A DNA stretch of 64,000 nt from Azonexus sp. Lineage in GTDB: Bacteria; Pseudomonadota; Gammaproteobacteria; Burkholderiales; Rhodocyclaceae. Both the position numbers and the translations under genes were made by a program. Positions within the stretch are counted from its first letter, which is position 1, and each line of letters starts with the position of its first letter. The DNA is taken from contig JAGOBB010000001.1 of NCBI GenBank assembly GCA_017983615.1, forward strand, positions 620,001 to 684,000, written 5' to 3'. Shown here in pieces: positions 2,701 to 56,752 of the stretch. The notes under the pieces were generated by a model. It worked only from the letters and a program-made list of their open reading frames with translations, did no database searches and was not told the DNA's origin.

Positions 2701-2737
2701 TGATTTTGGCCAAAAAAACCGGCCGACCGTAGCATTT
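2701..2737 (+). repeat. T-tract/GACCGTAGCATT element, copy 1
   Basis: Core CGACCGTAGCATTT at 2724-2737, preceded by TGATTTTGGCC and an AT tract. In this copy the inner tract is A7 rather than T, flanked by GGCC on both sides. It lies between the gltD terminator and the next gene, in an intergenic spacer. Confidence 0.85.
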
Positions 2738-2815
2738 GGCTGCCAGGACCTGCGTTCAGCCTTCGACAGCCTGCACCAATCGTGTGAAAATGCAGAATGA
2801 TCACAAGGGGGACCT

Positions 2816-3547
2816 ATGGCGGCTGATCTACAACCTGCGCTGCAGGTGACGACTCCAAGCGGCGCGCTCGACGGGCACATGCTGCTCATCCTGGCCATCA
2901 TGGTTGTCGCTGGCATTCTCGGTGGCGTTGCCAACTATTTTCTGGCCGACCGGCACGGCGAACCCGCCCGCCGCGACTGGGTGAAATATCCGGTATTCGG
3001 CGTCGTGGCCGCCCTGACCGTGCCCCTGTTCCTCAACATGATTTCCAGCACCCTGCTCGAAGGGGCGCGGACCAAGCCGGTCGACTTCTACGTCTTTTCC
3101 GGCTTTTGCCTGATCTACGTGGTTGCCTCGCGGCGCCTGTTCGAGAACATGGTGCAACGCCTGATGGGGCAGATCGACCAGGTTCATCGTGACGTCGGGC
3201 ATCTGAAACAACAAAAGCGCGATGAACCGGCTGCCGCCGTCAAGGCCGAAATCGAGCCGATCAAGCTGGCGGAGCATGATCCGAAGGATGTCCTCTCCTA
3301 CAACGACGTCGAAATCCTCCGCGCGCTGGCCGAAGAAAGCTTCGTCTACGGCAATCTGGTGGCGATTTGCGAAAACACCGGGCTGGCCCGCGATTTCGTC
3401 AGCCAGCGCCTGACTGTCATGAAGGCGATGGGGGTTATCGAAACCCGCATCAACGACAAGAATGTCCTGCACTGGATCGTGTCGGCCCGCGGCAAGGCGG
3501 TCCTGAACGATATCCTCGGCGGCCAGGAGCAGAAGAAAATCGCATGA
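2816..3547 (+). CDS. Three-TM membrane protein with C-terminal winged-helix-like domain
   Basis: A 243-residue protein I cannot name with certainty. Residues about 20-42, 55-80 and 86-107 are hydrophobic and probably span the membrane. A charged linker follows, and residues about 165-235 look like a winged helix ([32 protein letters not shown]). The arrangement recalls three-TM proteins found beside prokaryotic YEATS-like proteins, but that link is only a resemblance. The start is supported by AAGGGGG eight bases upstream. Its stop is 44 bases before the chosen glmU start, so the two are probably co-transcribed. A membrane-tethered regulator is a reasonable inference, not shown. Confidence 0.75.
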
Positions 3548-3591
3548 ACCCCACCGGCTTAACTGCCGGACTCAATTTGAAGAAAAACGCC

Positions 3592-4950
3592 ATGAATATC
3601 GTCATTCTCGCTGCCGGCCAAGGCAAGCGCATGCATTCAAATCTTCCCAAGGTGCTGCATCCGATCGCCGGCAAACCCCTGGCCCAGCACGTGATCGATA
3701 CCGCGCGACAGCTGTCGCCGGAAAGGCTGATCGTCGTCTATGGCCATGGCGGTGAAATGGTTCGCTCGACGCTCGCGGCAGACGACCTTGCCTGGGCCGA
3801 GCAGGCCCAGCAGCTCGGCACCGGCCACGCGGTCGCCCAGGCCGTGCCGCAGCTAGGAAGTGCCGCGCAGACACTGGTCCTTTATGGCGACGTGCCGCTG
3901 ACCACCGTGGCCACGCTGAAGCGCCTGCTGCAGGCTGGCAAGGACGGGCTGTCGGTGCTGACGGTCGATCTTGCCAACCCGACCGGCTACGGCCGCATCG
4001 TCCGTAACGCCGCCGGCAACATGGTCAGCATCGTCGAGGAAAAGGATGCGACGCCCGAGCAGAAGGCCATCCGTGAGGTCAATACCGGGATCATGGCCAT
4101 TCCGACGGCCCGTCTGGCCGACTGGCTGGGCAAACTGAAGAACGACAATTCCCAGGGCGAGTACTACCTGACCGACATCGTCGCGCTGGCGGTGGCCGAA
4201 GGCCTGCCGGTGCGCACCGCGCAGCCCGAAGGCGAGTGGGAAGTGCTGGGCGTCAACAGCAAGGTCCAACTGGCCGAGCTGGAACGCCAGCACCAGCGTA
4301 ATCTGGCCGACCAGTTGCTGGTCGCCGGCGTGCGTCTGGCTGACCCGGCACGGATCGACATACGCGGTACGCTGACCCATGGGCGCGATGTGTCCATCGA
4401 TGTCGGCTGCGTCTTCGAGGGCAAGGTCGAGCTGGCCGATGCGGTCGAAGTGGGCCCTTACTGCGTGCTGAAGAACGTCAAGGTCGGCGCCGGGACGCGG
4501 ATCGCCGCCTTCTGCCATTTCGAAGATGCGGTGATCGGGCCGGACGGCGTGCTTGGCCCCTATGCCCGCCTGCGCCCGGGCAGCGAACTGGGCCCCGAGG
4601 TTCATATCGGCAACTTCGTCGAGGTCAAGAACAGCAAGATTGCCGCCCAGTCCAAGGCCAACCATCTAGCCTACATCGGCGACGCCGAGATCGGCCAGCG
4701 GGTGAACGTCGGCGCCGGCACGATCACCTGCAACTACGACGGCGCCAACAAGCACAAGACGATTATCGAGGACGACGTGTTCATCGGCTCCGATACACAA
4801 CTGGTCGCGCCGGTGACCGTCGGCCGCGGGGCGACGCTGGGCGCCGGGACGACGTTGACCAAGAACGCGCCGCCCGATGCGTTGACCGTATCGCGGGCCA
4901 GGCAACTGACGCTGCCGGGCTGGGCGCGTCCGCAGAAGGTGAAGAAATAA
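3592..4950 (+). CDS. glmU: Bifunctional N-acetylglucosamine-1-phosphate uridyltransferase / glucosamine-1-phosphate acetyltransferase
   Basis: A 452-residue cytoplasmic enzyme making UDP-GlcNAc for peptidoglycan and lipid A. The N-terminal nucleotidyltransferase shows [11 protein letters not shown] and [10 protein letters not shown], with YGDVPL as the metal-binding region. The C-terminal left-handed beta-helix carries the acetyltransferase ([22 protein letters not shown]). I chose the ATG at 3592 because [14 protein letters not shown] is the usual N-terminus; an in-frame ATG at 3544 that overlaps the upstream stop would add 16 residues and cannot be excluded. The stop overlaps the next gene's start. 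Confidence 0.96.
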
Positions 4951-5273
4951 TGGATTGGGGTTTCGTACTGTTCGCTGTCGTGTCGACGCTGTCACTGGCC
5001 GCCGGCGGCCTCTTGTTGCTGATTGGCTACATCGGCACCGTTCCCGCGGCCTTCAGTTTCGGCTGGAAGACGGGTTTGCCCGTGCTGCTGTTGCCGGTGA
5101 TCGGTCCGGTCTGGTTTGCCCTCAGCCATGGCCCGGAGTTTCGCCGGGCGGCGATTCAGTTGATTGCCGGGTTGGCGCTGGTGGCGCTGGCTGGTGGCCT
5201 GATCGCCGGGCTGGGGCCGCACTTTGCCGACAAGATGGTGGCCGAGATGATCGAGGCTGAAAAGAATCGTTGA
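4950..5273 (+). CDS. Small hydrophobic membrane protein
   Basis: A 107-residue protein whose ATG overlaps the glmU stop (TAATG), so it is translationally coupled. It has three hydrophobic stretches (about residues 5-32, 42-58 and 68-90) and a short charged C-terminus. No catalytic motif is visible and I do not recognise the family. Position suggests co-expression with glmU, but a role in envelope synthesis is only suggested by that. Confidence 0.7.
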   Translation: MDWGFVLFAVVSTLSLAAGGLLLLIGYIGTVPAAFSFGWKTGLPVLLLPVIGPVWFALSHGPEFRRAAIQLIAGLALVALAGGLIAGLGPHFADKMVAEMIEAEKNR

Positions 5274-5306
5274 TTCGCTGTTGTTTTATTGCTCAGGGAG
5301 AAGAAG

Positions 5307-7358: not shown

Positions 7359-7375
7359 ACCCCGACGAATCGACC

Positions 7376-7410
7376 AAATGCTACGGTCGATGGCAAAAAA
7401 GGGCCGAAAT
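7376..7410 (-). repeat. T-tract/GACCGTAGCATT element, copy 2
   Basis: Inverted copy: core AAATGCTACGGTCG at 7376-7389, then A6 at 7395-7400 and a second A-rich stretch. It lies 18 bases after the stop of the EF-G-like gene, and its A6 tract doubles as the T-tail of the minus-strand arm of the neighbouring terminator. Confidence 0.88.
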
Positions 7411-7428
7411 TGAAATTCGGCCCTTTTT
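7395..7428. terminator. Bidirectional terminator between convergent genes
   Basis: GGGCCGAA (7401-7408) pairs with TTCGGCCC (7416-7423), flanked by A6 on the left and T5 on the right. It can end both the EF-G-like gene on the plus strand and the sensor kinase on the minus strand. Confidence 0.85.
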
Positions 7429-7449
7429 CGTCGTTGGGCGGAACGGTGT

Positions 7450-11085: not shown

Positions 11086-11104
11086 GTCCTTGGCGTCCAG
11101 GATG

Positions 11105-11134: not shown

Positions 11135-11224
11135 TACGTTGTTTGCGGGGAGGGCTCCTGCCACATCCCGTCGAGTGTCTCTACATTGCCTCCTGCCGGT
11201 CACTTGCGGGCTTCGGAAACTGAG

Positions 11225-11260: not shown

Positions 11261-11319
11261 TAGGCTGGCGAAGAGTACCGGTGCGCAGCGGCTTTCTTTC
11301 GATGGCAGCCAGCGTTGGA

Positions 11320-12336
11320 TTATTGCTGACTGCTGGCATCGACCTTGGCAATCTCGGCCGGCTCGAATAGCGAACGGATGACGACACGGCGAATTTCCGG
11401 TTGATCCGGCACGGCATACATCACGTCGGTCATCATTTCCTCGAAAATGCCGCGCAGGCTGCGCGCGCCAGCCTTGTACTCGATGGCCAGTTCGGCCATC
11501 TGGCGAAAGACCGTCGGCTCGACCACCAGGTCGACGCCATCGGCAGCCAACATTGCCTTGAACTGCCGGTAGATGGCGTTCTTCGGCTCGGTCAGGATGC
11601 GCACCAGCATTTCCTGCGTCAGGTCATGCAGCCGGGTGACGATGGGCAGGCGGCCGGCGAATTCCGGGATCAGGCCGAATTCCAGCAGGTCGGTCGGTTT
11701 GACCCGGGCGTTCAGGCGTTCAAGGATTTTCTGGTCATCGCCGGCGGTGGTCGAAATGAAGCCGAAGGTGTGCGTCTTGGTCAGGATGTGGTCGAGCCCG
11801 ACGAAGGCGCCGCCGCAGATGAACAGGACGTGCGTGGTGTCGATCAGCCGGCCGTCCTTGAGCTTGACCGGGGCGCCCTCCATGATCTTGAGCAGGGCGT
11901 GCTGGACGCTTTCGCCGGAGGTGGCGCGGGTCTGGCCGCCTGCTGCCTTTAGCTTGTCGACCTCGTCGACGAAGACGATGCCGCGCTGGGCACGGGCGAG
12001 GTCGCCGTTGGCCCGGTCGACCAGGCGGTGCAGGATGGCCTCGATTTCGTCACCGACATATTGCGTCTGGGCCAGCGAGGTGGCATCGGCGGTCACGAAG
12101 GGCAGGTCGAGGATGCGGGCCAGGGTCTCGCAGAGCAGGGTCTTGCCGGTGCCGGTCGGGCCGATCAGCAGGATGTTGCTTTTGGTCAGTTCCACGGCAT
12201 CGACCGTAGCATTTGCCGCCATGCGTCGGAAATGGCCGTAGATGGCGACGGCCAGCGTGCGCTTGGCGTCTTCCTGGCCGATCACGTGCTCGGAAAGCTG
12301 ACGGACGATTTCGCTGGGTTTGAGTTGGGCTGGCAT
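11320..12336 (-). CDS. ClpX-like AAA+ unfoldase lacking the zinc-binding domain
   Basis: A 338-residue AAA+ protein clearly related to ClpX (GPTGTGKTLL Walker A, FVDEVDK Walker B, FGLIPEFAGRLP). Compared with ClpX it has no N-terminal four-cysteine zinc domain. The pore motif GYVG reads QYVG. The RKH loop is missing: the region is GAPVKLKDGRLIDTTHVLFICGG. The ClpP-binding IGF tripeptide corresponds to FGF in THTFGFIST. I chose the start at MPAQLKPSEIV (12336); a longer frame to 12426 would run into gpmI. It is divergent from gpmI. A copy of the recurrent element lies in the coding sequence (ANATVDAV). It is probably a ClpX paralogue with different substrates; partner unknown. Confidence 0.87.
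   Translation of the reverse strand: MPAQLKPSEIVRQLSEHVIGQEDAKRTLAVAIYGHFRRMAANATVDAVELTKSNILLIGPTGTGKTLLCETLARILDLPFVTADATSLAQTQYVGDEIEAILHRLVDRANGDLARAQRGIVFVDEVDKLKAAGGQTRATSGESVQHALLKIMEGAPVKLKDGRLIDTTHVLFICGGAFVGLDHILTKTHTFGFISTTAGDDQKILERLNARVKPTDLLEFGLIPEFAGRLPIVTRLHDLTQEMLVRILTEPKNAIYRQFKAMLAADGVDLVVEPTVFRQMAELAIEYKAGARSLRGIFEEMMTDVMYAVPDQPEIRRVVIRSLFEPAEIAKVDASSQQ
12180..12214 (+). repeat. T-tract/GACCGTAGCATT element, copy 3 (inside coding sequence)
   Basis: Core CGACCGTAGCATTT at 12201-12214 with TTTT near 12180 but no clear inner T-tract. It lies within the ClpX-like gene, read in reverse as ANATVDAV, at a stretch of ClpX proteins that is variable in length and sequence. Confidence 0.65.
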
Positions 12337-14064: not shown

Positions 14065-14102
14065 AAAACGGGCGCCATGCCGTGAGGCCGGCGCCCGTTT
14101 TG
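14065..14102 (+). terminator. Terminator after gpmI
   Basis: AAACGGGCGCC (ending 14076) pairs with GGCGCCCGTTT (14090-14100) and runs into TTTT. It also faces the convergent minus-strand gene. The recurrent element begins directly in its T-tail. Confidence 0.88.
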
Positions 14103-14130
14103 CCTGTTTTTTGGCATCGACCGTAGCATT
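14098..14130 (+). repeat. T-tract/GACCGTAGCATT element, copy 4
   Basis: TTTT at 14098-14101 (shared with the terminator tail), T6 at 14107-14112, then core CGACCGTAGCATT at 14118-14130. TGCC and GGCA flank the inner T-tract and could pair. It sits between convergent genes. Confidence 0.85.
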
Positions 14131-14150
14131 CGGCGGTCTGTTGCAAAAAA

Positions 14151-16003: not shown

Positions 16004-17389
<1,386 letters not shown>

Positions 17390-18709: not shown

Positions 18710-21502
18710 TTGCGACTGATCGTCGACGAGAACTCCGTTCCGCGCATTCACCTGATCGGTACGCTGGTCATCGTCCTGTTGTTGACGCTCGGGCTGGGGG
18801 CGTTCTTCTCCTGGCAGCACGTGCAGGAGGGGCGCGCTGCGCTGGCCCGCATCGAGCAGGCGACGGCGCAGCAGATGCGCGGCCGCCTGCAGGTCGAAAT
18901 GGATAGCACGCTCGGCTTCATCGATTTCGCGCGCCAGCGCACCGAGGCGCGATTGCGCCATGCGCTGGTCGAGCACGTCGACAGCGCCTTCCAGATCGCC
19001 GAGGCCATCCACCGGCAGGAATCGCCGCGCCGCCCGGCCGCCGAGGTCAAGCGAATGATCGTCGAAGCCCTGCGCCCCGTCCGTTTCTTCGGAGGGGGGG
19101 GCTATTACTTCATTGGTCAAATGGATGGGCGTTTCGTGCTGCATCCGGTCGCAACGTATTTCGAAGGGCGGGACATCAGCGACCTCGAGGACGACACCGG
19201 CAGTCGCTTTGTAAGGCGGATGATCGTCGCGGCGGGCAATGGGGGCCACGACGGGTTCACCCGCTATCGGTGGTACACGCCCGGCGATAGCAAGCAGATG
19301 TCCGACAAGCTCTCCTATGTCCGCCGTTTTGCGCCGTACGATTGGTTCATCGGCAGTGGCGACTATTTGTTCAAATGGGAGCAGATGCAGCAGCGGGAGG
19401 CGCTCGATTACCTGCGTTCCCTGCGCTTCGGCGGCACCGGGGCTTTTGCCGTGCTCGACCGTGAGGGGCGCCTGCTGTCGTGGCCGGAACAGCCGACGCT
19501 CGACGGAACGCGCGTTGCCGATCTGCCGGCCGAGGCGCGCCAGATGTTCGAACGGGTCCAGGCCCTGGCAGCGGAGGGGGGTGGATTCCAGAGCGATGAG
19601 CGGCTCAATCCCTCCTCCGGAGACCGTGTCCGGAAGACGGCGCTGGTGGCCAAGGTTGCCCCGTGGGACTGGATACTGGTCGCTGCCGTCGACGACAGTG
19701 AAATGAATCTCGCGGTCAGCAACGAACTGGCTCGCGCCCACGACGGTGAAATCTCCGGCATGGGCAAGTTGATCGTTCCGACGATTGCGGCACTGGCCTT
19801 TGGGCTGCTCGCGTCCCTGCTTTTTTCTCGCTGGTCGAACCGCCTGTTTGTTGCCTACCACCGGCAGAGCGAGGCGCAACGCAATGCCTTGCGGGCCAGC
19901 GAGGACAAGCTGGCGACCATCCTTGATAGCGTCGAGGCCTATATTTTCATCAAGGGTGCCGACTATACCTACCAGTACGCCAACCGACGGGTTTGTGAAT
20001 TGTTCGGAAAGCCGCCGGAAGAGATCATTGGCCAGGACGATGCGGCCTTCTTCGCAGCGCCAACCGCCGAAATGATTCGCCGCAATGACCGGCAGGTCAT
20101 CGAGGAGGGGCGGCGAATCGTTGAAGAAGAAGTGACGACATCGGCCGATGGCCGGATGACCTGTGCTTTTCTGGCGGCCAAGATTCCGCTCCGCGACCAG
20201 AATGGTCACATCTACGCGCTATGTGGCATTTCGACCGACATCACGCAGCGCAAGCAGCAGGAGGCGGAACTGGAAAGCTATCGGGCGCACCTTGAGACGC
20301 TGGTCATGTCACGAACCGCGGAACTGGCCGAGGCCAAGGAGGCCGCCGAAGCGGCAAGCCGCGCCAAGAGTTCCTTCCTGGCCAACATGAGCCACGAAAT
20401 CCGGACGCCGATGAATGCCATTCTAGGGCTGACCCATCTGCTTCAGAAGGCCGATCTCGGCGACGTGGAACGCCAGCGGCTCGGCAAGATCGACGATTCG
20501 GCCCATCACCTGCTCAGCGTCATCAATGACATTCTGGATATTTCGAAGATCGAGGCCGGGCGAGTGGTGCTGGAGGATCATCTGTTTGCCCCGCAGGAGG
20601 TAGTGCGGAACGTTCTGGACATGCTTGAGGAGCGGGCGGCGGACAAGGGCTTGCGTCTGGCCGCTGCCCTGGCGCCTGAGGTGCCTGCCTTCCTGCGCGG
20701 CGATTCGGTACGCCTGGAGCAAACCTTGCTCAACTTCGTCGGCAATGCGATCAAGTTTTCGGGACAGGGCGAAATCGCAATCCGGGTGGGCGTCGTGGCT
20801 GACGAGGGCAGTAGGGTGCTGCTCCGGATCGAAGTCGAGGATCAGGGCATCGGCATGACGCCCGAACAGCAGGGGCGTCTGTTCGAAGCTTTCACGCAGG
20901 CCGACGGCTCGACGACGCGCAAGTACGGCGGCAGTGGCCTGGGGCTGGCGATCAATCGCCATCTGGCCCGGATGATGGGCGGCGATGTCGGCGTTGACAG
21001 CACCCCAGGCGTCGGCAGCCGCTTCTGGATCACCGCCTGGCTGGCCCGGGCCGAGCCGCCGGCGCCGGCGGTCGATGCGGAGGAAGGGCGGCCGCTCGAG
21101 CAGGTTATTGCCGAACGCCACGGCGGCCGGCAGGTTCTGTTGGTCGAGGACGAGCCGATCAATCAGGAAGTGGCCGGCGCCCTGCTCGAAATGGCCGGCT
21201 TGTGCGTCGAGATTGCCAACAACGGCGCTGAGGCGGTCGAGCGCCTGCGCAGCGAGGGCATCGATCTGGTGCTGATGGACATCCAGATGCCGGTTATGGG
21301 CGGCATCGAGGCGGCACAGCGGATTCGTACCCTGGCCGGCCGCGCGGCGCTGCCGGTCATCGCCATGACCGCCAACGCCTTCGAGGAAGACCGCCAGGCC
21401 TGCTTCGCGGCTGGCATGAACGACCATATCGGCAAGCCGGTCGATCCGCAGGTGCTCTACGCCACCTTGTTGCGCTGGCTGGATTCTTCCGCAGCAAACT
21501 GA
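18710..21502 (+). CDS. Hybrid sensor histidine kinase: double Cache, PAS, HisKA, HATPase, REC
   Basis: A 930-residue membrane kinase. TM1 is near 15-37. The periplasmic region has two Cache-like modules ([19 protein letters not shown] near 125 and a second near 225-330). TM2 is near 350, a PAS at about 400-510, the histidine in [14 protein letters not shown], the ATPase with GGSGLGL, and a C-terminal receiver ([11 protein letters not shown]). It starts with TTG at 18710, with GGAG 11 bases upstream; I see no better in-frame start before TM1. The TGA stop lies inside a copy of the recurrent element. Cache domains of this type often sense small organic acids; the ligand here is unknown. Confidence 0.9.
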
Positions 21503-21536
21503 TTTTTGCCCTTTTTTGAGGCCGACCGTAGCATTT
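21500..21536 (+). repeat. T-tract/GACCGTAGCATT element, copy 6 (supplies a stop codon)
   Basis: TGATTTTT starts with the TGA stop of the sensor kinase, followed by GCCC, T6, GAGGC and core CGACCGTAGCATTT at 21523-21536. Confidence 0.9.
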
Positions 21537-22945: not shown

Positions 22946-22983
22946 TGGTTTTGGCCATTTTTTGGCGGCGACCGTAGCATTTT
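22946..22983 (+). repeat. T-tract/GACCGTAGCATT element, copy 7
   Basis: TGGTTTT, GGCCA, T6, GGCGG and core CGACCGTAGCATTT at 22969-22982. It begins four bases after the stop of the M48 protease gene. GCCA and TGGC flank the inner T-tract. Confidence 0.9.
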
Positions 22984-30293: not shown

Positions 30294-31697
30294 ATGCAAG
30301 CCAAGCTTTCCGCAATTGCCCTTACCGTAGCCACCGCCTTTGCCCTTTCCGGATGTGGCCAGAAGGAAGAGCCCAAGGCGGCTGCTCCTGCCGCGCCGGC
30401 TGCCAAGCCCGAAGTGGTCGTCAAGCTCGGCCATGTCGCACCGATGACCGGCCCACAGGCCCACCTCGGCAAGGACAATGAGAACGGCGCCGTGCTGGCC
30501 GTTGAGGAACTCAACGCCCGCGGCATGGAAATCGGTGGCGCCAAGGTTAAATTTGAACTGATCAACGAGGACGACGCGGCCGATCCGAAGCAGGGCGCCA
30601 TCGTTGCCCAGAAGCTGGTCGATGCCAAGGTTAACGGCGTTATCGGCCACCTCAATTCAGGGACCACCATCCCGGCCTCCAAGCTCTACGCCGATGCCGG
30701 CATCCCGCAGATTTCCGGTTCGGCGACTAATCCGAAATACACGCAGCAGGGCTTCAAGACGGCCTTCCGCGTCATGGCCAACGACGTTCAGCAGGGCAAG
30801 ATCCTCGGCGAATTCGCCGTCAAGCAGGGCGTCAAGACGGTCGCCATCGTCGATGACCGCACCGCCTACGGCCAGGGCCTGGCCGACGAGTTCCGCAAGG
30901 CCGCCGAAGCAAGCGGCCTGAAGGTGGTCGCCACCGAATACACCACCGACAAGGCGACCGACTTCAAGGCCATCCTGACCAAGATCAAGTCGACCAAGGC
31001 CGAGTTGGTCTTCTACGGCGGCATGGATGCCCAGGGTGGGCCGATGGCCAAGCAGATGAAGGAACTCGGCATCAAGGCCAAGTTCCTCGGCGGCGATGGC
31101 GTGTGTACGCCGGAATTCATGAAACTGGGCGGCGAAGCGACCGAAGGCAATTTCTGTTCGCTGCCGGGCATGCCGCTGGAAAAGCTGGCCAAGGGGCCGG
31201 AATTCAAGGACAAGTTCACCAAGAAATTCAACGCCGAGATCCAGCTCTACGCGCCGTATGTCTATGATGCCGTGATGGTCATGGCCGATTCGATGAAGCG
31301 CGCCGACTCGGTCGATCCGGCCAAGTTCCTGGCGGAAGTCGGCAAGACCAACTACGACGGCGTCACCGCGCAGATTCAGTTCGACGAACTGGGCGACCTC
31401 AAGGGCGGCGCCATCTCGATCTACCAGTACAAGGGCGGCAAGCTTGAATACGTTGAGACCCTCGGCGGTGCACCGATCGAGACGGCCAAGGCTGAAGTCA
31501 AGGAAGCTGTGGCCGAAGTGAAGGATGCTGCCAAGGCCGTGGCCGGCGCGGCGACGGCGGTCGGCAAGGAAGCCGTTGGCGAGGTCAAGGAAGCGGCCAA
31601 GGCTGCCACCGAAGCCGGCAAGGACGCCGTCAAGGCTGGTGCCGAGGCCGTCAAGAATGCGGCCGACGCCACCAAGGCAGCAGTCGAGAAGAAGTGA
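30294..31697 (+). CDS. Branched-chain amino acid ABC transporter substrate-binding lipoprotein with helical tail
   Basis: A 467-residue periplasmic binding protein of the LivJ type. The signal ends in the lipobox LSGC, so the mature protein is lipid-anchored. The binding domain spans about 40-395 (LGHVAPMTGPQAHLGKDNENG, NSGTTIPAS, AYGQGLADEF). The last 70 residues are unlike the family: a low-complexity Ala/Lys/Glu/Val helix with repeating KEAV, KDAAKA and KAGAEAVKNAAD-like units. This tail resembles LEA-type or phasin-like amphipathic helices. It sits first in a liv operon, separated from livH by a hairpin. Confidence 0.92.
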   Translation: MQAKLSAIALTVATAFALSGCGQKEEPKAAAPAAPAAKPEVVVKLGHVAPMTGPQAHLGKDNENGAVLAVEELNARGMEIGGAKVKFELINEDDAADPKQGAIVAQKLVDAKVNGVIGHLNSGTTIPASKLYADAGIPQISGSATNPKYTQQGFKTAFRVMANDVQQGKILGEFAVKQGVKTVAIVDDRTAYGQGLADEFRKAAEASGLKVVATEYTTDKATDFKAILTKIKSTKAELVFYGGMDAQGGPMAKQMKELGIKAKFLGGDGVCTPEFMKLGGEATEGNFCSLPGMPLEKLAKGPEFKDKFTKKFNAEIQLYAPYVYDAVMVMADSMKRADSVDPAKFLAEVGKTNYDGVTAQIQFDELGDLKGGAISIYQYKGGKLEYVETLGGAPIETAKAEVKEAVAEVKDAAKAVAGAATAVGKEAVGEVKEAAKAATEAGKDAVKAGAEAVKNAADATKAAVEKK

Positions 31698-31768: not shown

Positions 31769-32692
31769 ATGGATATTTTCCTCCAGCAGATCGTCAATGG
31801 CCTGGTCCAGGGCAGCATCTACGCGCTGGTCGCGCTGGGCTACACGATGGTCTACGGGATCATGGGCCTGATCAATTTCGCCCATGGCGAGGTGGTGATG
31901 ATCGGCACGCTGGTCACCATCACTGTGGCCGGCACGCTGATCAAGGCCGGCATGCCGGTGGCGCTGGCCGGGCTGGCCGGGCTGACTGCAGCGGTGCTGG
32001 TCTGCATGGCGCTGGGCTGGGCGCTGGAGCGGGTGGCTTACCGCCCCTTGCGCAATGCGCCGCGCCTGACGCCGTTGATCACGGCGATCGGCATGTCCAT
32101 CGTCTTGCAGAATCTGGCGATGATGATCTGGGGACGCAACTACCTGACCTTTCCATCCTTGCTGCCCAAGGTGAATTTCGAACTGGCCGGCGCCCATTTC
32201 ACGGCTATCCAGATCATCATCGTGCTGGTTTCGGCGGCGACCATGGGTGGACTGCTGCTGCTGGTCTATCGGACCAAGCTGGGCATGGCGATGCGGGCGA
32301 CGGCGCAGAATCCGGCCGTGGCCAGCCTGATGGGGGTCAACATCAACCGCGTCATCGCCGCCGCCTTCGTGATCGGCTCGGCGCTCGGCGCGCTGGCCGG
32401 GGTAATGGTGGGTACTTACTACGAGATCGCTCATTATCAGATGGGCTTCATGCTCGGGCTGAAGGCTTTCACCGCGGCGGTATTGGGCGGCATCGGCAAC
32501 CTCGCCGGCGCCATGCTCGGTGGCGTGCTGCTTGGCCTGATCGAGGCGCTCGGCGCCGGCTACATCGGCGACCTGACCGGCGGCTTTCTGGGCAGTCACT
32601 ATCAGGACATCTTCGCTTTCGTCGTGCTGATTGGCGTGCTGATGTTCAAACCGAGCGGTTTATTCGGCGAGAAGACCGGAGACCGGGCATGA
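31769..32692 (+). CDS. livH: Branched-chain amino acid ABC transporter permease LivH
   Basis: A 307-residue inner-membrane permease with about eight TM segments. The family signature is seen in GLVQGSIYALVALGYTMVYG and INFAHGE near the N-terminus, and the cytoplasmic coupling loop in GIGNLAGAMLGG. It forms the channel with LivM. Its stop overlaps the livM start by four bases (ATGA), indicating coupling. Substrate class is taken from the family; liv-type systems may also carry other amino acids or amides. Confidence 0.93.
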   Translation: MDIFLQQIVNGLVQGSIYALVALGYTMVYGIMGLINFAHGEVVMIGTLVTITVAGTLIKAGMPVALAGLAGLTAAVLVCMALGWALERVAYRPLRNAPRLTPLITAIGMSIVLQNLAMMIWGRNYLTFPSLLPKVNFELAGAHFTAIQIIIVLVSAATMGGLLLLVYRTKLGMAMRATAQNPAVASLMGVNINRVIAAAFVIGSALGALAGVMVGTYYEIAHYQMGFMLGLKAFTAAVLGGIGNLAGAMLGGVLLGLIEALGAGYIGDLTGGFLGSHYQDIFAFVVLIGVLMFKPSGLFGEKTGDRA

Positions 32693-33750
32693 AAAACGGC
32701 CAATTTTTCCGCTCGACCGTAGGCATTGGCCTTTTGGCGGTTGTCCTGGTCGCGCTGCCCTTCGTCGCCGCGCTCGGCGGTCAGGCCTGGGTGCGCATCC
32801 TCGACTTCGCCATCCTCTATGTTTTCCTGGCCCTCGGCCTGAACATCGTCGTCGGCCTGGCTGGTCTGCTCGACCTCGGCTACATCGCCTTCTATGCTGT
32901 CGGCGCCTACACCTGGGCCTTGCTGGCGAGTCCTCACTTCGGCCTGCACTGGCCGATCTGGGCGATCCTGCCCGTCGGCGCCGGGCTGGCCTGTCTGGCC
33001 GGCGTCCTGCTCGGCTCGCCGACGCTGAAGCTGCGCGGCGACTACCTGGCCATCGTGACGCTCGGTTTCGGCGAGATCGTCCGCATCTTCCTGAACAACC
33101 TGAATGCGCCAATCAATGTAACCAACGGGCCGCAGGGCATCACGCTGATCGATCCGGTCAGTTTCGGCGCGTTCAAGTTCTCGGGGACAACACAGATTTT
33201 CGGTTTCGCGCTGAGTGGGCCGCAGAAATACTATTTTCTGCTCGTCGCGCTGGCCATCCTGGTCATCGTCATCAACGTCCGCCTGCAGCATTCGCGGATC
33301 GGCCGTGCCTGGCAGGCGATCCGCGAGGACGAGATCGCCGCCAAGGCGGTCGGCATCAACACCCGCAACCTGAAGCTGCTCGCCTTTGCGATGGGCGCCA
33401 GTTTCGGCGGCGTCGCCGGCGGCATTTTCTCCGCCATGCAGGGCTTCGTCTCGCCGGAAAGCTTCTCGCTGATCGAATCGATCATGATCCTCGCCATGGT
33501 CGTTCTGGGCGGCATGGGCCACATCCCCGGTGTCATCCTTGGCGCCGTGCTGCTGACGGTGCTGCCGGAAGTCCTGCGCTATGGCGTCGGGCCGTTGCAG
33601 ATGGCGCTGTTCGGCAAGATGCTGGTCGATCCGGAAAGCTTGCGCATGCTCGTTTTCGGCTTGGCGCTGGTCCTCGTCATGCGCTTCAAGCCAGCCGGCT
33701 TGTGGCCGTCGCCGGAGCGCCAAAGGGAACTGGCAGAGGCCAAGCCATGA
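32689..33750 (+). CDS. livM: Branched-chain amino acid ABC transporter permease LivM
   Basis: A 353-residue permease, with YVFLALGLNIVVGLAGLLDLGY near residue 45 and GGMGHIPGVILGA as the coupling loop. The first 13 codons (MKNGQFFRSTVGI) are written by a degenerate copy of the recurrent element. This closely parallels the start of the czcB-like gene (MKNAIFLGLTVAF). Start and stop both overlap the neighbours by four bases. Confidence 0.93.
   Translation: MKNGQFFRSTVGIGLLAVVLVALPFVAALGGQAWVRILDFAILYVFLALGLNIVVGLAGLLDLGYIAFYAVGAYTWALLASPHFGLHWPIWAILPVGAGLACLAGVLLGSPTLKLRGDYLAIVTLGFGEIVRIFLNNLNAPINVTNGPQGITLIDPVSFGAFKFSGTTQIFGFALSGPQKYYFLLVALAILVIVINVRLQHSRIGRAWQAIREDEIAAKAVGINTRNLKLLAFAMGASFGGVAGGIFSAMQGFVSPESFSLIESIMILAMVVLGGMGHIPGVILGAVLLTVLPEVLRYGVGPLQMALFGKMLVDPESLRMLVFGLALVLVMRFKPAGLWPSPERQRELAEAKP
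32692..32727 (+). repeat. T-tract/GACCGTAGCATT element, degenerate copy (start of livM)
   Basis: AAAAACGGCCAATTTTTCC then CTCGACCGTAGGCATT. The core has one extra G (GTAGGCATT) but the spacing of AT tracts is kept. It encodes the first residues of LivM. Confidence 0.6.
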
Positions 33751-34520: not shown

Positions 34521-35217
34521 AGTTACCGGACTCCACGTCGCCTACGGCGGCATCCAGGCGGTGCGCAGCATCACCTTTCACGTCAACGAAGGCGAGACGG
34601 TGGCGCTGATCGGCGCCAACGGTGCCGGCAAGACCAGCACGCTGAAGGCCGTGTCGCGCGTACTCGATGCGGTCGGCGGCGACGTGCATTTCTGCGGCGA
34701 AGATATCACCCGCCTGGCGCCGCACGACATCATCCGCAAGGGCATCGCCCTGGTGCCTGAAGGGCGGGGTGTCTTTCCCCGCCTGACCGTGCTGGAAAAC
34801 CTGCACATGGGCGCCTTCATCCGGAATGCTACGGTCGAGGTCGAAAAAGACCTGAAAATGGTTTTCGATTACTTCCCCCGTCTGAAGGAACGCGAGGGCC
34901 AGCTGGCCGGCACCCTGTCCGGCGGCGAACAGCAGATGCTGGCCATCGGCCGCGCCCTGATGAGCCGGCCGAAGATGCTGTTGCTCGATGAGCCCTCGAT
35001 GGGCCTGGCGCCGATCATGGTGCAGAAAATCTTCGAAGTCGTCCGCGCCGTCGCGGCCAACGGCATGACCATCCTGCTGATCGAGCAGAACGCCCGGCTG
35101 GCGCTGCAATGCAGCCAGCGTGGCTACGTCATGGAAAGCGGCGAGATCACGCTGCACGGCGAATCGGCCCAATTGCTCGACGATCCCAAGGTGCGCGCCG
35201 CTTATCTCGGCGAGTAG
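34513..35217 (+). CDS. livF: Branched-chain amino acid ABC transporter ATPase LivF
   Basis: A 234-residue ABC ATPase: Walker A GANGAGKTSTLK, signature LSGGEQQMLAIGRAL, Walker B LLLDEPSMGLAP, with VPEGRGVFPRLTV typical of LivF. It starts with GTG at 34513 and overlaps the end of livG by eight bases. A full copy of the recurrent element lies inside the gene, giving the segment RNATVEVEKDLK in a place where LivF proteins vary. It ends the liv operon. Confidence 0.95.
   Translation: MLEVTGLHVAYGGIQAVRSITFHVNEGETVALIGANGAGKTSTLKAVSRVLDAVGGDVHFCGEDITRLAPHDIIRKGIALVPEGRGVFPRLTVLENLHMGAFIRNATVEVEKDLKMVFDYFPRLKEREGQLAGTLSGGEQQMLAIGRALMSRPKMLLLDEPSMGLAPIMVQKIFEVVRAVAANGMTILLIEQNARLALQCSQRGYVMESGEITLHGESAQLLDDPKVRAAYLGE
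34825..34859 (-). repeat. T-tract/GACCGTAGCATT element, copy in livF coding sequence
   Basis: Inverted: core AATGCTACGGTCG at 34825-34837, then A5 and A4 at one-turn spacing. AGGTC and GACCT flank the inner tract and can pair perfectly, although the bases differ from other copies. Confidence 0.85.
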
Positions 35218-37922: not shown

Positions 37923-37959
37923 AAATGCTACGGTCGGCCCAAAAAATGGGCAAAAATCA
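37923..37959 (-). repeat. T-tract/GACCGTAGCATT element, copy 8 (supplies a stop codon)
   Basis: Inverted: core AAATGCTACGGTCG at 37923-37936, A6, then ATGGGCAAAAATCA. Read on the minus strand it begins with the TGA stop of the ferredoxin-reductase gene, exactly as copy 6 begins with a kinase stop. GCCCA and TGGGC flank the inner tract. Confidence 0.9.
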
Positions 37960-43950: not shown

Positions 43951-43988
43951 TGAAAATGCCCGGCAGGTCGCCGGGCATTTTCATTTTT
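43951..43988. terminator. Bidirectional terminator between the lipoprotein gene and lipA
   Basis: TGAAAATGCCCGG and CCGGGCATTTTCA form a perfect 13-bp stem with a 7-base loop, then TTTTT. The T-run is also the first tract of the recurrent element. Confidence 0.92.
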
Positions 43989-44018
43989 GGCCGTTTTTTG
44001 GGGCCGACCGTAGCATTT
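43981..44018 (+). repeat. T-tract/GACCGTAGCATT element, copy 9
   Basis: TCATTTTT, GGCCG, T6, GGGGC and core CGACCGTAGCATTT at 44005-44018, between convergent genes and directly after the terminator stem. Confidence 0.9.
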
Positions 44019-45881: not shown

Positions 45882-46757
45882 TCAGCCTTTGCGCATTACG
45901 GTGTTCTTGAAATCCTGGTACCACTGCCACATCTGCTGGCCGAGCGGGCCGGGCTTTCCGGTGCCGACTGGCTGGCCGTCGAGGGTGGTAATGGCCAGGA
46001 TTTCCTTGGTCGATGAGGTCATCCAGACCTCGTCGGCGCTGCGAAGTTCAGATTCTTCGATTTCGGCGATTTTCAGGGGCTGACCGTAGCATTCGGCCAG
46101 TTCGAGGATCACGTCGTAGGTGATGCCCGGCAGCATCAACTGGGTCTTGGGCGGGGCGAGCAGCACGCCATCGTTGATCACGAAAATGTTCGAGGCGGCG
46201 CCTTCCTTCATCAGGCCGTCGCGGATCAGGATCGCTTCGGCACAGCCTTGCTCGACGGCCTGCTGGCGGGCCAGCACGTTGGCGAGCAGGGAAATGACCT
46301 TGAGGTCGCAGCGCGCCCAGCGCAGGTCGGGCACGGTGATCGCCGAAACCCCCTTGGCCCGGACATCAGGCGGTGTGGTGACCAGCGGCGAGGCGAAGGC
46401 AAAGGCGGTCGGCGGTACGCTGGCCGGCGGGAAGGCGTGATCGCGTTTGTCGTCTGCGCCGCGGGTGACCTGCAGGTAGATCGACTGGTCGTCCCAGGGC
46501 GCGGCCTCGATCAGCTTCAGGACGACGGCTTTCCAGCCTTCAAGCGGCAGCGGGTTGGCCAGCTTGATGCCGGCCAGCGTCGCCTGCAGTCGCTTCAGGT
46601 GCTCATCGAGCCGGAAAGCGCGGCGCGAGTAAACCGGGATGACCTCATAGACGCCGTCACCGTACAGAAAACCGCGGTCGAGCGGCGAAATGCCCGCTTC
46701 GGCCAGCGGCAGGAAGCGGCCATTCAGATAGACGGGATCGGCGACGTAGGGAGTCAC
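45882..46757 (-). CDS. dat: D-amino-acid aminotransferase (class IV PLP enzyme)
   Basis: A 291-residue PLP enzyme that interconverts D-alanine and D-glutamate for peptidoglycan. The start (VYLNGRFLPLAEAGISPLDRGFLYGDGVYEV, residues 8-38) and the catalytic lysine in LKVISLLANVLARQ fit the family; SADEVWMTSSTKEI is the C-terminal signature. A branched-chain aminotransferase role is the alternative. The neighbouring dacA supports the cell-wall role. A copy of the recurrent element underlies ECYGQPLKIAEI. Confidence 0.9.
   Translation of the reverse strand: MTPYVADPVYLNGRFLPLAEAGISPLDRGFLYGDGVYEVIPVYSRRAFRLDEHLKRLQATLAGIKLANPLPLEGWKAVVLKLIEAAPWDDQSIYLQVTRGADDKRDHAFPPASVPPTAFAFASPLVTTPPDVRAKGVSAITVPDLRWARCDLKVISLLANVLARQQAVEQGCAEAILIRDGLMKEGAASNIFVINDGVLLAPPKTQLMLPGITYDVILELAECYGQPLKIAEIEESELRSADEVWMTSSTKEILAITTLDGQPVGTGKPGPLGQQMWQWYQDFKNTVMRKG
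46060..46093 (+). repeat. T-tract/GACCGTAGCATT element, copy inside dat
   Basis: ATTTCGGCGATTTTCAGGGGC then core TGACCGTAGCATT at 46081-46093. Tracts are shorter than elsewhere and no pairing arms are clear. The encoded ECYGQP is compatible with normal family sequence, so this could partly be chance. Confidence 0.55.
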
Positions 46758-48859: not shown

Positions 48860-48870
48860 TGGTTCGGCAG

Positions 48871-48909
48871 AAAAAATCGAAGAGTTATTCAATTTTGCTC
48901 CGATTTTTT
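48871..48909. promoter_or_regulatory. Inverted repeat in the nhaR-htpX intergenic region
   Basis: AAAAAATCG (48871-48879) and CGATTTTTT (48901-48909) form a perfect 9-bp inverted repeat with 21 bases between. A second small palindrome GTTGCAAC lies at about 48915-48922. These could be operators for NhaR or an htpX regulator. Confidence 0.5.
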
Positions 48910-48961
48910 GTTTTGTTGCAACGCAATATCATCGCGCTGTTTCTCATTAGAGGAGTTCAAC

Positions 48962-49840: not shown

Positions 49841-49873
49841 GCCTTCCTGGCGGATGGCACGCGGATTGCTGAG

Positions 49874-51115: not shown

Positions 51116-51117
51116 AA

Positions 51118-52257
51118 ATGAAAAATGCCATTTTTTTGGGGCTGACCGTAGCATTTCTGCTCGGCTGCAACCAGGAGAACACAAAATCGGCCGACCAGCG
51201 GGTGCAGGACCCATCGCTGGTGGCGCCGTCGAGCGAACTGCTGGCCCAGCTCAAGCTGGCCGAGGTCGGGCGTGCCGCCGTGGCGGAAACCCTGCGCGTC
51301 GCCGGGCGGATCGATTTCGACGAGCAGCGCCTGGCCCGCATCGGGGCGACGGTAACCGGCCGGGTGACGCAGATCGACGCCCTGCTTGGCCAGTCGGTCG
51401 GCAAGGGCGAGGTGCTGGCCCGGCTGAACAGCAGCGAGTTGTCCAGCCAGCAACTGGCCTATCTGAAGGCGCGCGCCCAGCTTGAATTGAATCGGCGGAA
51501 TGCCGAGCGGGCCAAGGCCCTGTTCGAGGCCGACGTGATCGGCGCGGCGGAATTGCAGCGTCGGGAAAGCGAATTCCAGATTTCAATGGCCGAAACGCGG
51601 GCCGCCTCCGACCAGTTGCAGCTGCTCGGCGTCAGCCCGGCCGCCATCGATCGTCTCGGCAAGCAGGGCGCGGTCGATTCAGTGACGCCGGTGATGGCGA
51701 CCATGAGTGGCGTCGTCGTCGAGCGCAAGCTGGCGCAGGGCCAGGTTGTCCAGCCGGCCGACGCATTGTTCGTCGTCGCCGACCTGTCGCGCCTGTGGGC
51801 CGTTGCCCAGGTGCCGGAGCAGCAGGTCAGCCAGGTCAAGGCCGGGCAGTCGGTCAGCATCGAAGTGCCGGCGCTGGGTAACGAGAAATTGATCGGCAAG
51901 CTGATCTTCGTCGGCCAGACCATCGACCCCGAAACGCGGACCGTGCTGGTTCGCACCGAGCTGGACAACCGCGACGGACGTCTCAAGCCGGCCATGCTCG
52001 CTTCGATGCTGATCGAAGCCAAGCCGGTCGAGCGTCTGGTCGTCCCGGCCAGTGCCGTGGTCCGTGAAAACGACGAGGATCATGTCTTTGTCGGGGAAGC
52101 CGACGGAACCTTCCGTCTGGTCAAGGTCAAGCTCGGGCCGGAGCAGGGCGGCGTGCGCGTGTTGCAGGCCGGCCTGAAGGGCGGCGAGAAGCTGGTCGTC
52201 GACGGGGCTTTTCACCTGAACAACGAGCGTAACCGCAAGGAAATGGAGGGATCGTGA
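51118..52257 (+). CDS. RND efflux periplasmic adaptor lipoprotein (CzcB-like)
   Basis: A 379-residue membrane-fusion protein. The signal ends at lipobox LLGC (MKNAIFLGLTVAFLLGC), which differs from CzcB proteins that have a TM anchor. The hairpin and lipoyl regions follow (ATVTGRVTQIDALLGQSVGKGEVLARLN; ATMSGVVVERKLAQGQVV), with a beta-barrel (LWAVAQVPEQQVSQVKAGQ). Nearly all of the signal peptide is written by a copy of the recurrent element. It overlaps the pump gene by four bases. Confidence 0.9.
   Translation: MKNAIFLGLTVAFLLGCNQENTKSADQRVQDPSLVAPSSELLAQLKLAEVGRAAVAETLRVAGRIDFDEQRLARIGATVTGRVTQIDALLGQSVGKGEVLARLNSSELSSQQLAYLKARAQLELNRRNAERAKALFEADVIGAAELQRRESEFQISMAETRAASDQLQLLGVSPAAIDRLGKQGAVDSVTPVMATMSGVVVERKLAQGQVVQPADALFVVADLSRLWAVAQVPEQQVSQVKAGQSVSIEVPALGNEKLIGKLIFVGQTIDPETRTVLVRTELDNRDGRLKPAMLASMLIEAKPVERLVVPASAVVRENDEDHVFVGEADGTFRLVKVKLGPEQGGVRVLQAGLKGGEKLVVDGAFHLNNERNRKEMEGS
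51119..51156 (+). repeat. T-tract/GACCGTAGCATT element, copy encoding a signal peptide
   Basis: AAAAATGCCA, T7, GGGGC and core TGACCGTAGCATTT at 51143-51156, starting at the second base of the start codon of the adaptor gene. The frame used gives NAIFLGLTVAF, a hydrophobic h-region. Confidence 0.9.
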
Positions 52258-55200: not shown

Positions 55201-55364
55201 TGCTCGGCCTGATCCCGTTCCTGTTCTCGAGCGGGCCGGGCTCGGAGGTGCAGCGGCCGCTGGCCATCGTGGTCATCGGCGGGTTGATCACGTCGACCTT
55301 GTTGACGCTGGTCGTATTGCCTACCATCTATCGCTGGTTTGATGAGGAAGAGGTCGAAGCATGA
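52254..55364 (+). CDS. Heavy-metal RND efflux pump, CzcA family
   Basis: A 1036-residue inner-membrane pump with 12 TM segments and two large periplasmic loops. The start is MIESLVRSALKQRLIV. The TM4 motif region reads GGLAIAIGLMVDGSVVVVEN, with the acidic residue needed for proton coupling, and the pump ends with GPGSEVQRPLA. The segment ESTPIVSLKPRSEW is family-typical. The metal (Co/Zn/Cd, Ni or Cu/Ag) cannot be set from the motif alone. GTG start overlaps the adaptor stop. Its stop overlaps the PII-like start. Confidence 0.93.
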   Translation: MIESLVRSALKQRLIVAVVAAVLFFFGLDAARKLSVDAFPDVTNVQVQIATEAPGRSPEEVERFATVPLEVAMTGLPGLEEMRSLNKSGLSLITLVFSDKTDVYFARQLVMERLLEVGSRLPAGITPVLGPVSTGLGEVYQYTLERADDGDRALSEEELMKRRIAQDWVVRPLLRSIPGVAEINSQGGYAKQYHVLVNPDKLRHFGLSIADVYQAVGRNNANAGGGVLPQYAEQYLIRGVGLVRDLEDLRAIVLKEKDGVPVYVRDVAEVEIGHEVRQGAVIKNGTTEAVGGVVMMIAGGNAKEVVSRIKERVDQINAKGMLPDGLKIAAYYDRSELVDAALWTVTKVLLEGVVLVVVVLFLFLGDVRSSLIVVATLVLTPLLTFTAMNKLGISANLMSLGGLAIAIGLMVDGSVVVVENAFLQLGRNANKGESPLRVILHAVVEVATPVIFGVGIIILVFLPLMTLQGMEGKMFAPLAYTIAIALGISLILSMTLTPVMSTYLLKPPAHDGDHDTKLIAAMKQRYLKMLHLALGNEKKTVVAAVGAFALTVAVLPLLGTAFIPEMKEGSVVPGINRVPNISLEESVKMEMEAMRLVMQVPGVKSAVSGVGRGESPADPQGPNESTPIVSLKPRSEWPSGWTQDDIQDAMRDKLKGLPGVQVVMAQPISDRVDEMVTGVRSDIAVKVFGDDLDQLKKIAGQIGKVAQALQGAQDLRIERISGQQYLSIEIDRQAIARLGLNVADVNDVLETAIGGKVATEIFEGERRFPGVVRLPEHFRNNVEAISNVLITSPRGAQVRLTDVANIRVMDGPAQISRELGKRRIVVGVNVKDRDLGSFVAELQQKVDAQIKLPEGYYLEWGGQFQNMERALGHLMVIIPITIAAIFFLLFLLFNSLRFATLIITVLPFASIGGIIGLFVAGEYLSVPASVGFIALWGIAVLNGVVLVSYIRGLREEGRSVREAVVEGATLRFRPVMMTATVAMLGLIPFLFSSGPGSEVQRPLAIVVIGGLITSTLLTLVVLPTIYRWFDEEEVEA

Positions 55365-55693
55365 AGGAAATCAAGGCAGTCATCCGCCCCAACAAGCTGG
55401 CCGCGCTGCGCGATGCGATGATCGCTTTGCCTGGCTTTCCGGGCATGACAGTGAGCAAGGTCGAGGGCTGCGGCGCGCCCTCGCGCCATTTGGCCAAGCA
55501 CACGATCAAGGAGGAGCTGACCGACTATTCGCCCAAGGTGCGCATCGAGATCGTTGCGCCGGACGACGTGGCGGAAAGTATTTTCCAGCGGATTACCGAG
55601 GTCGCGAAGACCGGGCACTACGGCGACGGGCTGGTCTGGATGACCGACGTCGAGAAGGCAACCTTCATTTTCAAGACGGTGGGTCCCGAGTGA
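55361..55693 (+). CDS. PII-like regulator of the metal efflux operon
   Basis: A 110-residue protein with the PII trimer fold (MKEIKAVIRPNKLAALRDAM; GDGLVWMTDVEKATFIFKT). It overlaps the pump gene by four bases. The T-loop lacks the uridylylated tyrosine of GlnB, and the middle has GCGAPSRHLAKHT instead. PII-like proteins beside CzcA/CusA-type pumps form a described subgroup. A role in sensing metals or nucleotides to control the pump is inferred. Confidence 0.85.
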   Translation: MKEIKAVIRPNKLAALRDAMIALPGFPGMTVSKVEGCGAPSRHLAKHTIKEELTDYSPKVRIEIVAPDDVAESIFQRITEVAKTGHYGDGLVWMTDVEKATFIFKTVGPE

Positions 55694-55813
55694 TGCAGCT
55701 TATGGATTGTTATTTTTGTCAGGTGAGGAGTATTTCACAGTAAATTGAGGCGGGTTTTCCTAGAATGGCCGTTAGTTTCTCAGCCCTGACGGGCGAAAGT
55801 TGTCTGGAATTTC

Positions 55814-56734
55814 ATGGAAAATCTGCTCTCTCCCGGACCGGGCGCCACCCTGATGTCGCCAGCCGAGCTTCACGAAGGTATCGCCAGCCTGTCGCGGGGT
55901 GCCTATTTCAGGGAGGCGCCCCTGAACATGATGCTTGGCATCCTGACCGAGTCGGCGGCACAGATGTCAGGTGTGGAGCGTGTCAGCATCTGGGCACTGA
56001 CCGACGATCAGCAGGAACTTCGTTGTCTCGAGCTCTATGAGCGAACGCCAGGCCGTCACAGCAAGGATGGACGCCTTTCCGCCAGCCGCTATCCCAACTA
56101 TTTCCGGGCGCTACGCAGCGGGAGTTGCATTGCTGCCGATGATGCCTCTGTGCATCCGGATACGGTCGAATTTGCCGGCGACTACCTGCCTCAGCACGGC
56201 ATCACCGCCATGCTTGACACACCTATCCATATTCGCGGTGAACTTCAGGGGGTGCTCTGTCTCGAACAGGTTGGTATGAGCCAGCCATGGACGGCGGCTC
56301 ACCAGATATTTGCGCAGGCGGTGGCCAATCTGGTCACGCTGGCCTTTGTGGAATACGAGGCCGAGGAGGCGCGGCGCCACGCACACGCTGCCAGTGAGCG
56401 CCTGCGCGCCGTGTTCAATGCTTCACGGGATGCATTGATTCTGGCGGATGGCGAGAGTGGCGAGATTCTAGACGTCAATCGGCAGGCGGAAATCCTTGTC
56501 GGGTGCGATCGCGCGGCATTGCTAGGGCGTGATCAGGGATCGCTTTATCCGCTGGAGCAGCGGCAACGAGCGGCCGGCGAATTCCGCCGCTTGCTGGAAG
56601 GGGTGTCACCTTGGGCTTTGGTGACCGAGGTACAGCACAGCGAGGGGCGGCGAGTGCCGGTGGAAATCTCTGCCGAAGTGGCCGATCTCAGCGACGGTCA
56701 TCGCCTGGCGCTAAGCATTTTTCGGCCTTTTTAG
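55814..56734 (+). CDS. GAF-PAS sensory protein without output domain
   Basis: A 306-residue protein. A GAF domain occupies about 30-185 (VERVSIWALTDDQQELRCLELYER; GITAMLDTPIHIRGELQGVLCLEQVG). A PAS follows at about 195-300 (LRAVFNASRDALILADGESGEILDVNRQAE). The protein stops at LSIFRPF, where PAS domains normally continue into FRDIT-like coupling and an output domain. The stop codon is inside the recurrent element, so the gene looks truncated by it, or it is a stand-alone sensor. ATG at 55814. Confidence 0.8.
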   Translation: MENLLSPGPGATLMSPAELHEGIASLSRGAYFREAPLNMMLGILTESAAQMSGVERVSIWALTDDQQELRCLELYERTPGRHSKDGRLSASRYPNYFRALRSGSCIAADDASVHPDTVEFAGDYLPQHGITAMLDTPIHIRGELQGVLCLEQVGMSQPWTAAHQIFAQAVANLVTLAFVEYEAEEARRHAHAASERLRAVFNASRDALILADGESGEILDVNRQAEILVGCDRAALLGRDQGSLYPLEQRQRAAGEFRRLLEGVSPWALVTEVQHSEGRRVPVEISAEVADLSDGHRLALSIFRPF

Positions 56735-56752
56735 GTATCGACCGTAGCAATT
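56716..56752 (+). repeat. T-tract/GACCGTAGCATT element, copy at two convergent stop codons
   Basis: CATTTTTCGGCC, T5, AGGTAT, core CGACCGTAGCAATT at 56739-56752 (one base differs). It contains both the TAG of the GAF-PAS gene (56732-56734) and the TAA of the minus-strand gene (complement of 56731-56733). Confidence 0.88.

Follow-up and report, generated by a model that had tools for sequence, protein, structure and literature searches.

A 64-kb stretch of DNA from Azonexus sp. (contig JAGOBB010000001.1, positions 620,001 to 684,000; the whole stretch is called the window below) carries many copies of an element of about 37 bp, in which a core, YGACCGTAGCATTT, is preceded by two A/T tracts. 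From the comparisons reported here, we propose that this repeat serves as a DNA uptake sequence, a tag that marks DNA of one species or clade, and we put the probability of this reading at roughly 0.83. On incoming double-stranded DNA the tag would be read by a receptor at the cell surface, most probably a minor pilin of the type IV class, and the DNA imported for natural transformation would thus come mostly from the cell's own kind. The A/T tracts would help the duplex to bend or open, as is proposed for the uptake signal sequence (USS) in the available text of PMC7811141 and PMC12616744. Tagged alleles would be imported and recombined more often, copies would accumulate, and they would build up at tolerated places such as gaps between convergent genes and tolerant spots in coding sequence.

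Abundance and anatomy of the repeat

Allowing up to two mismatches on both strands, we found 15 matches to the core in the window, compared with a mean of 0.53 and a maximum of 3 in 100 shuffles of the same DNA. Eight are exact and five carry one mismatch, and all 13 of these lie at sites listed in an initial annotation, which had described the element as recurring 14 times. The fourteenth site, at 32692, is the degenerate CGACCGTAGGCATT (32714-32727), and the listed coordinates match the recomputed ones to within a few bases. The remaining two matches, at 1237 and 14596, have two mismatches and no A/T tracts, and were absent from that list. The initial annotation held that such repetition exceeds chance, which is borne out both by these counts and by those for the whole genome; it proposed no mechanism.

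The genome containing the window (G000) comprises 2.92 Mb in 34 contigs and is 86% complete. In it, YGACCGTAGCATTY occurs 196 times in forward and 190 times in reverse orientation, 386 copies in all, and the reversed pattern, which served as the control, occurs 0 times. The word GACCGTAGCATT is the most over-represented 12-mer in 464 kb of G000 (75 copies versus 0.06 expected) and is found 451 times in the genome, or about once per 6.5 kb. The excess of plus-strand copies noted in the window, 11 of 14, was counted correctly and is purely local: genome-wide the two orientations are balanced, and another 400 kb of the same contig hold 31 plus and 39 minus copies. The order of strands along the contig is random (runs z = 1.33), and strand agrees with local GC skew at 45 and disagrees at 38 of 83 sites in 464 kb of this one draft genome. 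By that measure of local skew in an incomplete genome, the 464 kb show no replichore-type strand bias of the sort known for Chi or for FtsK-orienting polar sequences (KOPS).

A consensus of 83 aligned GACCGTAGCA sites revealed A/T tracts at -22 to -18 and -12 to -7 before GACCG, with GgCc between them and, after the second tract, ggGcC followed by GACCGTAGCATTY; a fainter run rich in T precedes them at -27 to -25. The main tracts are centred near -20 and -9.5 and are thus about 10.5 bp, or one helical turn, apart, which places them about one and about two helical turns upstream of the core. The consensus is not palindromic, and we saw neither common sequence past about 37 bp nor terminal repeats. 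The arrangement of T runs given in the initial annotation is clear at most window sites; it is weak at 12201 and shorter at 46081, and at 2724 and 51143 one tract consists of A rather than T.

As judged by gene calls from a simple custom script rather than a standard gene finder, 46 of the 83 sites lie in predicted genes, 35 are intergenic and 2 are partial, in two regions with coding fractions of 0.867 and 0.896. Gaps between convergent genes are over-represented, holding 17 of the 37 non-genic sites. Genic sites are divided equally between the strand of the gene and the opposite strand (23 each), and 36 of the 46 share one reading frame, encoding mostly T-V-A or (N)-A-T-V. The sites are also spaced more evenly than expected at random: the coefficient of variation is 0.73 (70 sites, 400 kb), compared with 0.98 (standard deviation 0.11) under the null.

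Clade-specific spellings and their exchange in place

Relatives within the genus carry clade-specific spellings around an invariant GACCG, with the same A/T tracts. The G000 word GACCGTAGCATT is abundant in only 3 of 76 genus genomes, namely G000, G075 (372 copies) and G029 (310); seven others hold 12-53 copies and the remainder 0-6, and 73 searched genomes of other genera hold 0 or 1. Other relatives have dialects of their own: GTYGACCGTG in G065, GTYGACCGCG and GTYGACCGCA in G030 and G032, TTGACCGTAGCA in G069, GTYGACCGCT/CC in G039, and GTYGACCGCA or its TCGACCGCAAC form in G008, G015, G041, G043 and G051. Of the 27 sampled relatives, ten contained no word of this kind and G024 was ambiguous in its sample; several of the 40-kb samples are too small for dialect calling, including that of G024, which is enriched genome-wide. 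The G069 word appears in the plain word count and drops out of the top six in a stricter count that discards words with repeated flanks, likely as a result of its fixed flank. Counted over whole genomes of the genus, GTYGACCGCA ranges from background up to 1630 copies (G051; control 22), with 1297 in G008 (control 38) and 1269 in G010 (control 28). Fourteen genomes of other genera in the family hold 14-58 copies with controls of 7-46, the largest ratio being 58/7 in G084. The same A/T tracts precede the sampled dialects, and 80 GTYGACCG sites taken from nine non-enriched genomes lack them.

For counting independent of dialect, we used a pattern of five A/T, 16 of any base, and YGACCG. Relative to its reversed control, this pattern reached an enrichment of 2.5-fold or more in 43 genomes of the genus (G002, G011, G012 and G071 among them); the remaining 33 of the 76 stayed at 1.7-fold or below. 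The enriched genomes hold 135-997 copies each, and the two strands sum to 12233 and 12313. In the family's other genera (285 genomes), no comparable enrichment was found with this pattern, which cannot detect unrelated words; the exceptions above twofold have low counts and include G345 (67/25), G412 (46/20), G312 (30/13) and G198 (8/3). Because of this difference, the motif belongs, as far as searched, to one genus. G165, a genome of another genus that is hardly enriched (46 versus a control of 35), contains two apparently true copies with both tracts (C6:35008-35034 and C6:52763-52789), perhaps through transfer or as a remnant. Among the matches listed, database records with the motif include Betaproteobacteria bacterium isolate AG28 and uncultured beta proteobacterium isolate Loclat_bin-15563. 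Contig VBAQ01000065.1, labelled Bacteroidetes bacterium BD_1, also holds the pattern and is probably a wrongly binned contig of a G000 relative.

On a tree of 19 genomes, some deep branches of which are weakly supported, dialects follow clades. Non-enriched genomes are scattered over this tree (G018 and G066 beside G000 and G029; G048; G035; G044 and G047), and repeated loss of the motif is the simplest reading.

We then compared orthologous positions, querying 113 G000 sites, of which 50 gave an alignment with one or more relatives; dialect groups were assigned after the word counts. In genomes with the GTYGACCGCA dialect (G008, G030, G032 and G043), GACCGCA stood at the same place in 10 of 17 comparisons covering 16 distinct G000 sites, with one GACCGTAGCA and six showing neither; control windows contained GACCG in 11 of 776 cases. 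In G039, G069 and G073, GACCGTG was found in 6 of 9 comparisons from only four distinct G000 sites, with one other GACCG and two showing neither (control windows, 2/396). Non-enriched genomes had any GACCG in just 1 of 15 comparisons (control, 8/653); G024, although enriched, sat in this list but yielded no comparison. The single comparison for G065 gave no GACCG (0/1). The same-dialect genomes G029 and G075 kept the motif in 42 of 46 comparisons, a figure that is biased upward because their stretches were partly fetched for holding the motif; the stretches of the other groups were picked by place or synteny. What relatives show at these places is the alternative spelling, ungapped in several cases, rather than an empty site. 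Since relatives show other spellings at the same places, many sites predate the dialects and were respelled where they stand. Such respelling speaks for a reader whose preference has changed, and against a mobile repeat that spread by insertion.

The uptake-sequence reading and its alternatives

The initial annotation had suggested a comparison with uptake sequences, and this was the right lead. USSs are described in the Pasteurellaceae, with a Haemophilus type, AAGTGCGGT, and an Actinobacillus pleuropneumoniae type, ACAAGCGGT (available text of PMC12616744 and PMC7811141). As far as that text describes them, USSs resemble our repeat in several ways: a pair of helically spaced A/T tracts flanks the core on one side, copies number in the hundreds on either strand, within genes as well as between them, and the dialects keep a fixed inner core. 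In addition, TGCGGTCRAC, the reverse complement of GTYGACCGCA, contains GCGG and has its tracts on the same 3' side; the six letters shared with the USS (TGCGGT) may be chance, and we claim no descent. The G000 dialect, in contrast, reads AATGCTACGGTC on that strand and holds TACGGTC, without GCGG, the invariant part being CGGTC. The tracts do lie 3' of CGGTC on this other strand, at about helical spacing, and the host here is a betaproteobacterium. The two USS 9-mers were unenriched, at 0-2 copies each, in sampled DNA of G000 and nine other motif-bearing genomes.

The DNA uptake sequences (DUSs) of the Neisseriaceae, as presented in the available text of PMC3630211, likewise form clade-specific dialects around an invariant CTG, with many copies in betaproteobacterial hosts, features that our repeat shares with a different inner core. 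It differs in lacking CTG, in its lower copy density relative to the published figures seen, and in its tracts, DUSs being continuous and without A/T tracts (PMC12616744, available text). The DUS word GCCGTCTGAA was unenriched, at 0-2 copies, in each of ten motif-bearing samples. Repetitive extragenic palindromic (REP) sequences and bacterial interspersed mosaic elements (BIMEs) are also short, present in many copies and enriched between genes; unlike them, our repeat has a non-palindromic consensus, lies in genes at 46 of 83 sites and has its dialects swapped in place. A search for Rfam families at gathering score left the repeat unmatched, with four tRNAs the sole matches in the window, and the four core spellings searched in the literature are matched only by papers that are unrelated by title, in keeping with the initial annotation, which did not recognise the repeat as a described family. 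By its letters the repeat is neither DUS nor USS; in layout, USS comes nearest to it.

Of the competence machinery, G000 carries comEC in an unbroken frame, as well as dprA and genes for minor pilins. Nine type IV pilin-like matches were found, eight of them above the family cut-off, and a FimT-like protein adjoins a ComP_DUS-like pilin at a contig end. These two pilins are candidate receptors, no more. As predictors of the motif by presence or absence both failed: ComP_DUS (PF16732) is found in 134 of 149 genomes, enriched or not, and the FimT-like pilin in 73 of 76, without separating the classes. Identity to the FimT-like query is 90% in G029, which shares the dialect, 65% in G011 and 62% in G065, and 22-52% elsewhere among the best matches listed. 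Scores for PF16732 span about 35 to 96 bits within the order and show no apparent link to enrichment of the motif; the single G000 match scores 38 bits.

One foreign insert could be examined for the motif. In G061, comEC holds a 48.5-kb Tn7-like element (G061:C22:223000-271500) whose genes include TnsA, a Mu-type transposase, TniB and TniQ/TnsD, with a cargo of Wadjet JetA/JetD-type genes beside an SMC-like protein. GTYGACCGCA is absent from this insert, where about 8-9 copies would be expected, and occurs 13 times in 68 kb elsewhere in G061; the dialect-independent pattern occurs once versus 15 times. Part of this lack may reflect composition, because the G+C content of the insert is 0.518. 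Unevenness of DUSs in mobile elements is used to detect such elements, according to the available text of PMC7371117.

The element thus interrupts a DNA-import gene and itself carries a defence system. More widely, 9 of 66 genus genomes searched (G002, G005, G018, G029, G035, G036, G044, G057 and G061) have a comEC that is broken up within a single contig. In eight of these the gaps span 2-49 kb and recur near profile positions 145 and 161-166; in G035 the split lies near position 224, without a large gap. The gene looks like a recurrent insertion target, and one paper (PMC11472951) reportedly mentions comEC together with Tn7-like elements.

Several results weigh against an uptake sequence. 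Motif density in G000 is lower than the Neisseria and Haemophilus counts in the published text available, and the foreign-DNA comparison comes from a single element with a lower G+C content. In G000 we could not confirm a short ComEA, and none of the genes compared (ComP_DUS pilin, FimT-like pilin, dprA and HHH_3) tracks the presence of the motif. Nor is a split comEC significantly associated with its loss: three of the nine genomes with a split gene are enriched and six are not, compared with 29 and 20 of the 49 with an intact gene (p = 0.27; p = 0.16 when seven partial comEC genes are included). In G065, some copies overlap as palindromes (ACGGTCGACCGT, 8 versus 0.04 expected), a feature that the G000 consensus does not show. 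Finally, binding by a pilin and raised uptake are steps that we infer from sequence.

A signal read in the cytoplasm for chromosome organisation or repair (Chi-, KOPS-, matS- or parS-like, or a site of an unknown nucleoid protein) would explain why short sites recur by the hundred along the chromosome and why they have A/T tracts, which suit a bending protein. The lack of orientation bias in strand counts, runs and GC skew speaks against such a signal, as do the 33 of 76 genus genomes that manage without the motif. Housekeeping signals seldom change spelling between sister clades, as this motif does, and we consider this explanation improbable. Somewhat less credit still goes to a fossil, that is, an uptake sequence no longer read in this species. 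The scattered non-enriched genomes imply that the system was often lost or gained, and comEC is split in nine genomes of the genus; the core, however, still stands out as the sharpest word in the G000 DNA sampled, and the host's own comEC and dprA are uninterrupted.

A role in transcription, as a promoter with an upstream A/T element or as part of a terminator, seems very unlikely even though several sites follow hairpins and convergent gaps are over-represented. Such gaps do not suit promoters, more than half of the sites are inside genes, and the genic sites ignore gene strand; a terminator role may be secondary, as for DUS and USS (available text of PMC12616744). Least probable of all is a small mobile or self-replicating repeat, of REP/BIME type or like a miniature inverted-repeat transposable element, spread by insertion. 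Its copies would indeed be repeated, intergenically enriched and often beside terminator-like hairpins, but the repeat has no shared sequence beyond its own length and no terminal repeats seen, it often lies in genes, and relatives show another spelling rather than an empty site. A phage origin was also considered and rejected: 60 viral contigs each show CGACCGTAGCATTT just once in the stretch sampled, a raw count.

To our knowledge, self-recognition uptake tags have so far been reported in just two bacterial families. For Rhodocyclaceae, Rhodocyclales and Dechloromonas, no uptake sequence is described in the literature searched, which was largely without subscription papers and without bioRxiv. 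If the repeat is an uptake sequence, a third lineage, with many dialects in a single genus and close relatives lacking the tag, would offer natural replicates for studying how tags originate, how they and their receptors change in step, and whether they act as species barriers. The receptor question becomes testable through close relatives that have another dialect or no tag at all, and in these genomes the motif may be of use for spotting foreign DNA. A broader and more speculative version, which we regard as doubtful, would make this a third self-DNA uptake system, confined to one genus in the searched family, where it has six or more dialects and has been lost repeatedly. Its CGGT and same-side A/T tracts at one and two helical turns would bring it close to the Haemophilus USS, and both might be read by related minor-pilin receptors through transfer or strong convergence.

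Sites in the window

The 14 copies are as follows (position; strand; description).

2703..2737; +; tract and core, intergenic, directly after a terminator-like hairpin; second tract A7. Orthologous place: GACCGTAGCA in G029, GACCGTG in G069, other GACCG in G073, none in G030, G032, G048 and G066
7376..7410; -; tract and core, convergent-gene gap; tract doubles as part of a terminator-like hairpin; kept in G029 and G075, absent in G018, G048 and G066
12180..12214; +; core with weak tracts, within a minus-strand clpX-like gene (NCBIfam ClpX); same core in 0 of 11 relatives compared, GACCGTGC reading in G039
14097..14131; +; tract and core, convergent-gene gap, downstream of a terminator-like hairpin; not intact in G029
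16037..16071; +; tract and core, near the 3' end of a minus-strand RhlE-like helicase gene; kept in G029
21502..21536; +; tract and core, intergenic; kept in G029, TCGACCGCA in G008, not intact in G075
22948..22982; +; tract and core, intergenic; kept in G029 and G075
32692..32727; +; degenerate copy with one extra core base, at the start of an open reading frame (ORF) at 32689; seen in the sequence
34824..34858; -; tract and core, in a LivF-like ATP-binding cassette (ABC) ATPase gene, opposite strand; kept in G029, absent in G065
37923..37957; -; tract and core, convergent-gene gap
43984..44018; +; tract and core, convergent-gene gap (our own gene calls), after a terminator-like hairpin; kept in G029 and G075
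46060..46094; +; core with short tracts, in a minus-strand D-amino-acid-transaminase-like gene
51122..51156; +; tract and core, in the signal-peptide-like start (MKNAIFLGLTVAFLLGC) of a resistance-nodulation-division (RND) efflux adaptor gene
56718..56752; +; tract and singly mismatched core, at the 3' end of an ORF on the minus strand that matches no NCBIfam family at 1e-10

At the two gene starts (window 51118-51168 and 32689-32727), tract and core together encode a hydrophobic, signal-peptide-like stretch. Elsewhere in the window, imperfect 66-bp direct repeats lie at 31483-31659 and appear by eye to be rich in Ala and Lys codons.

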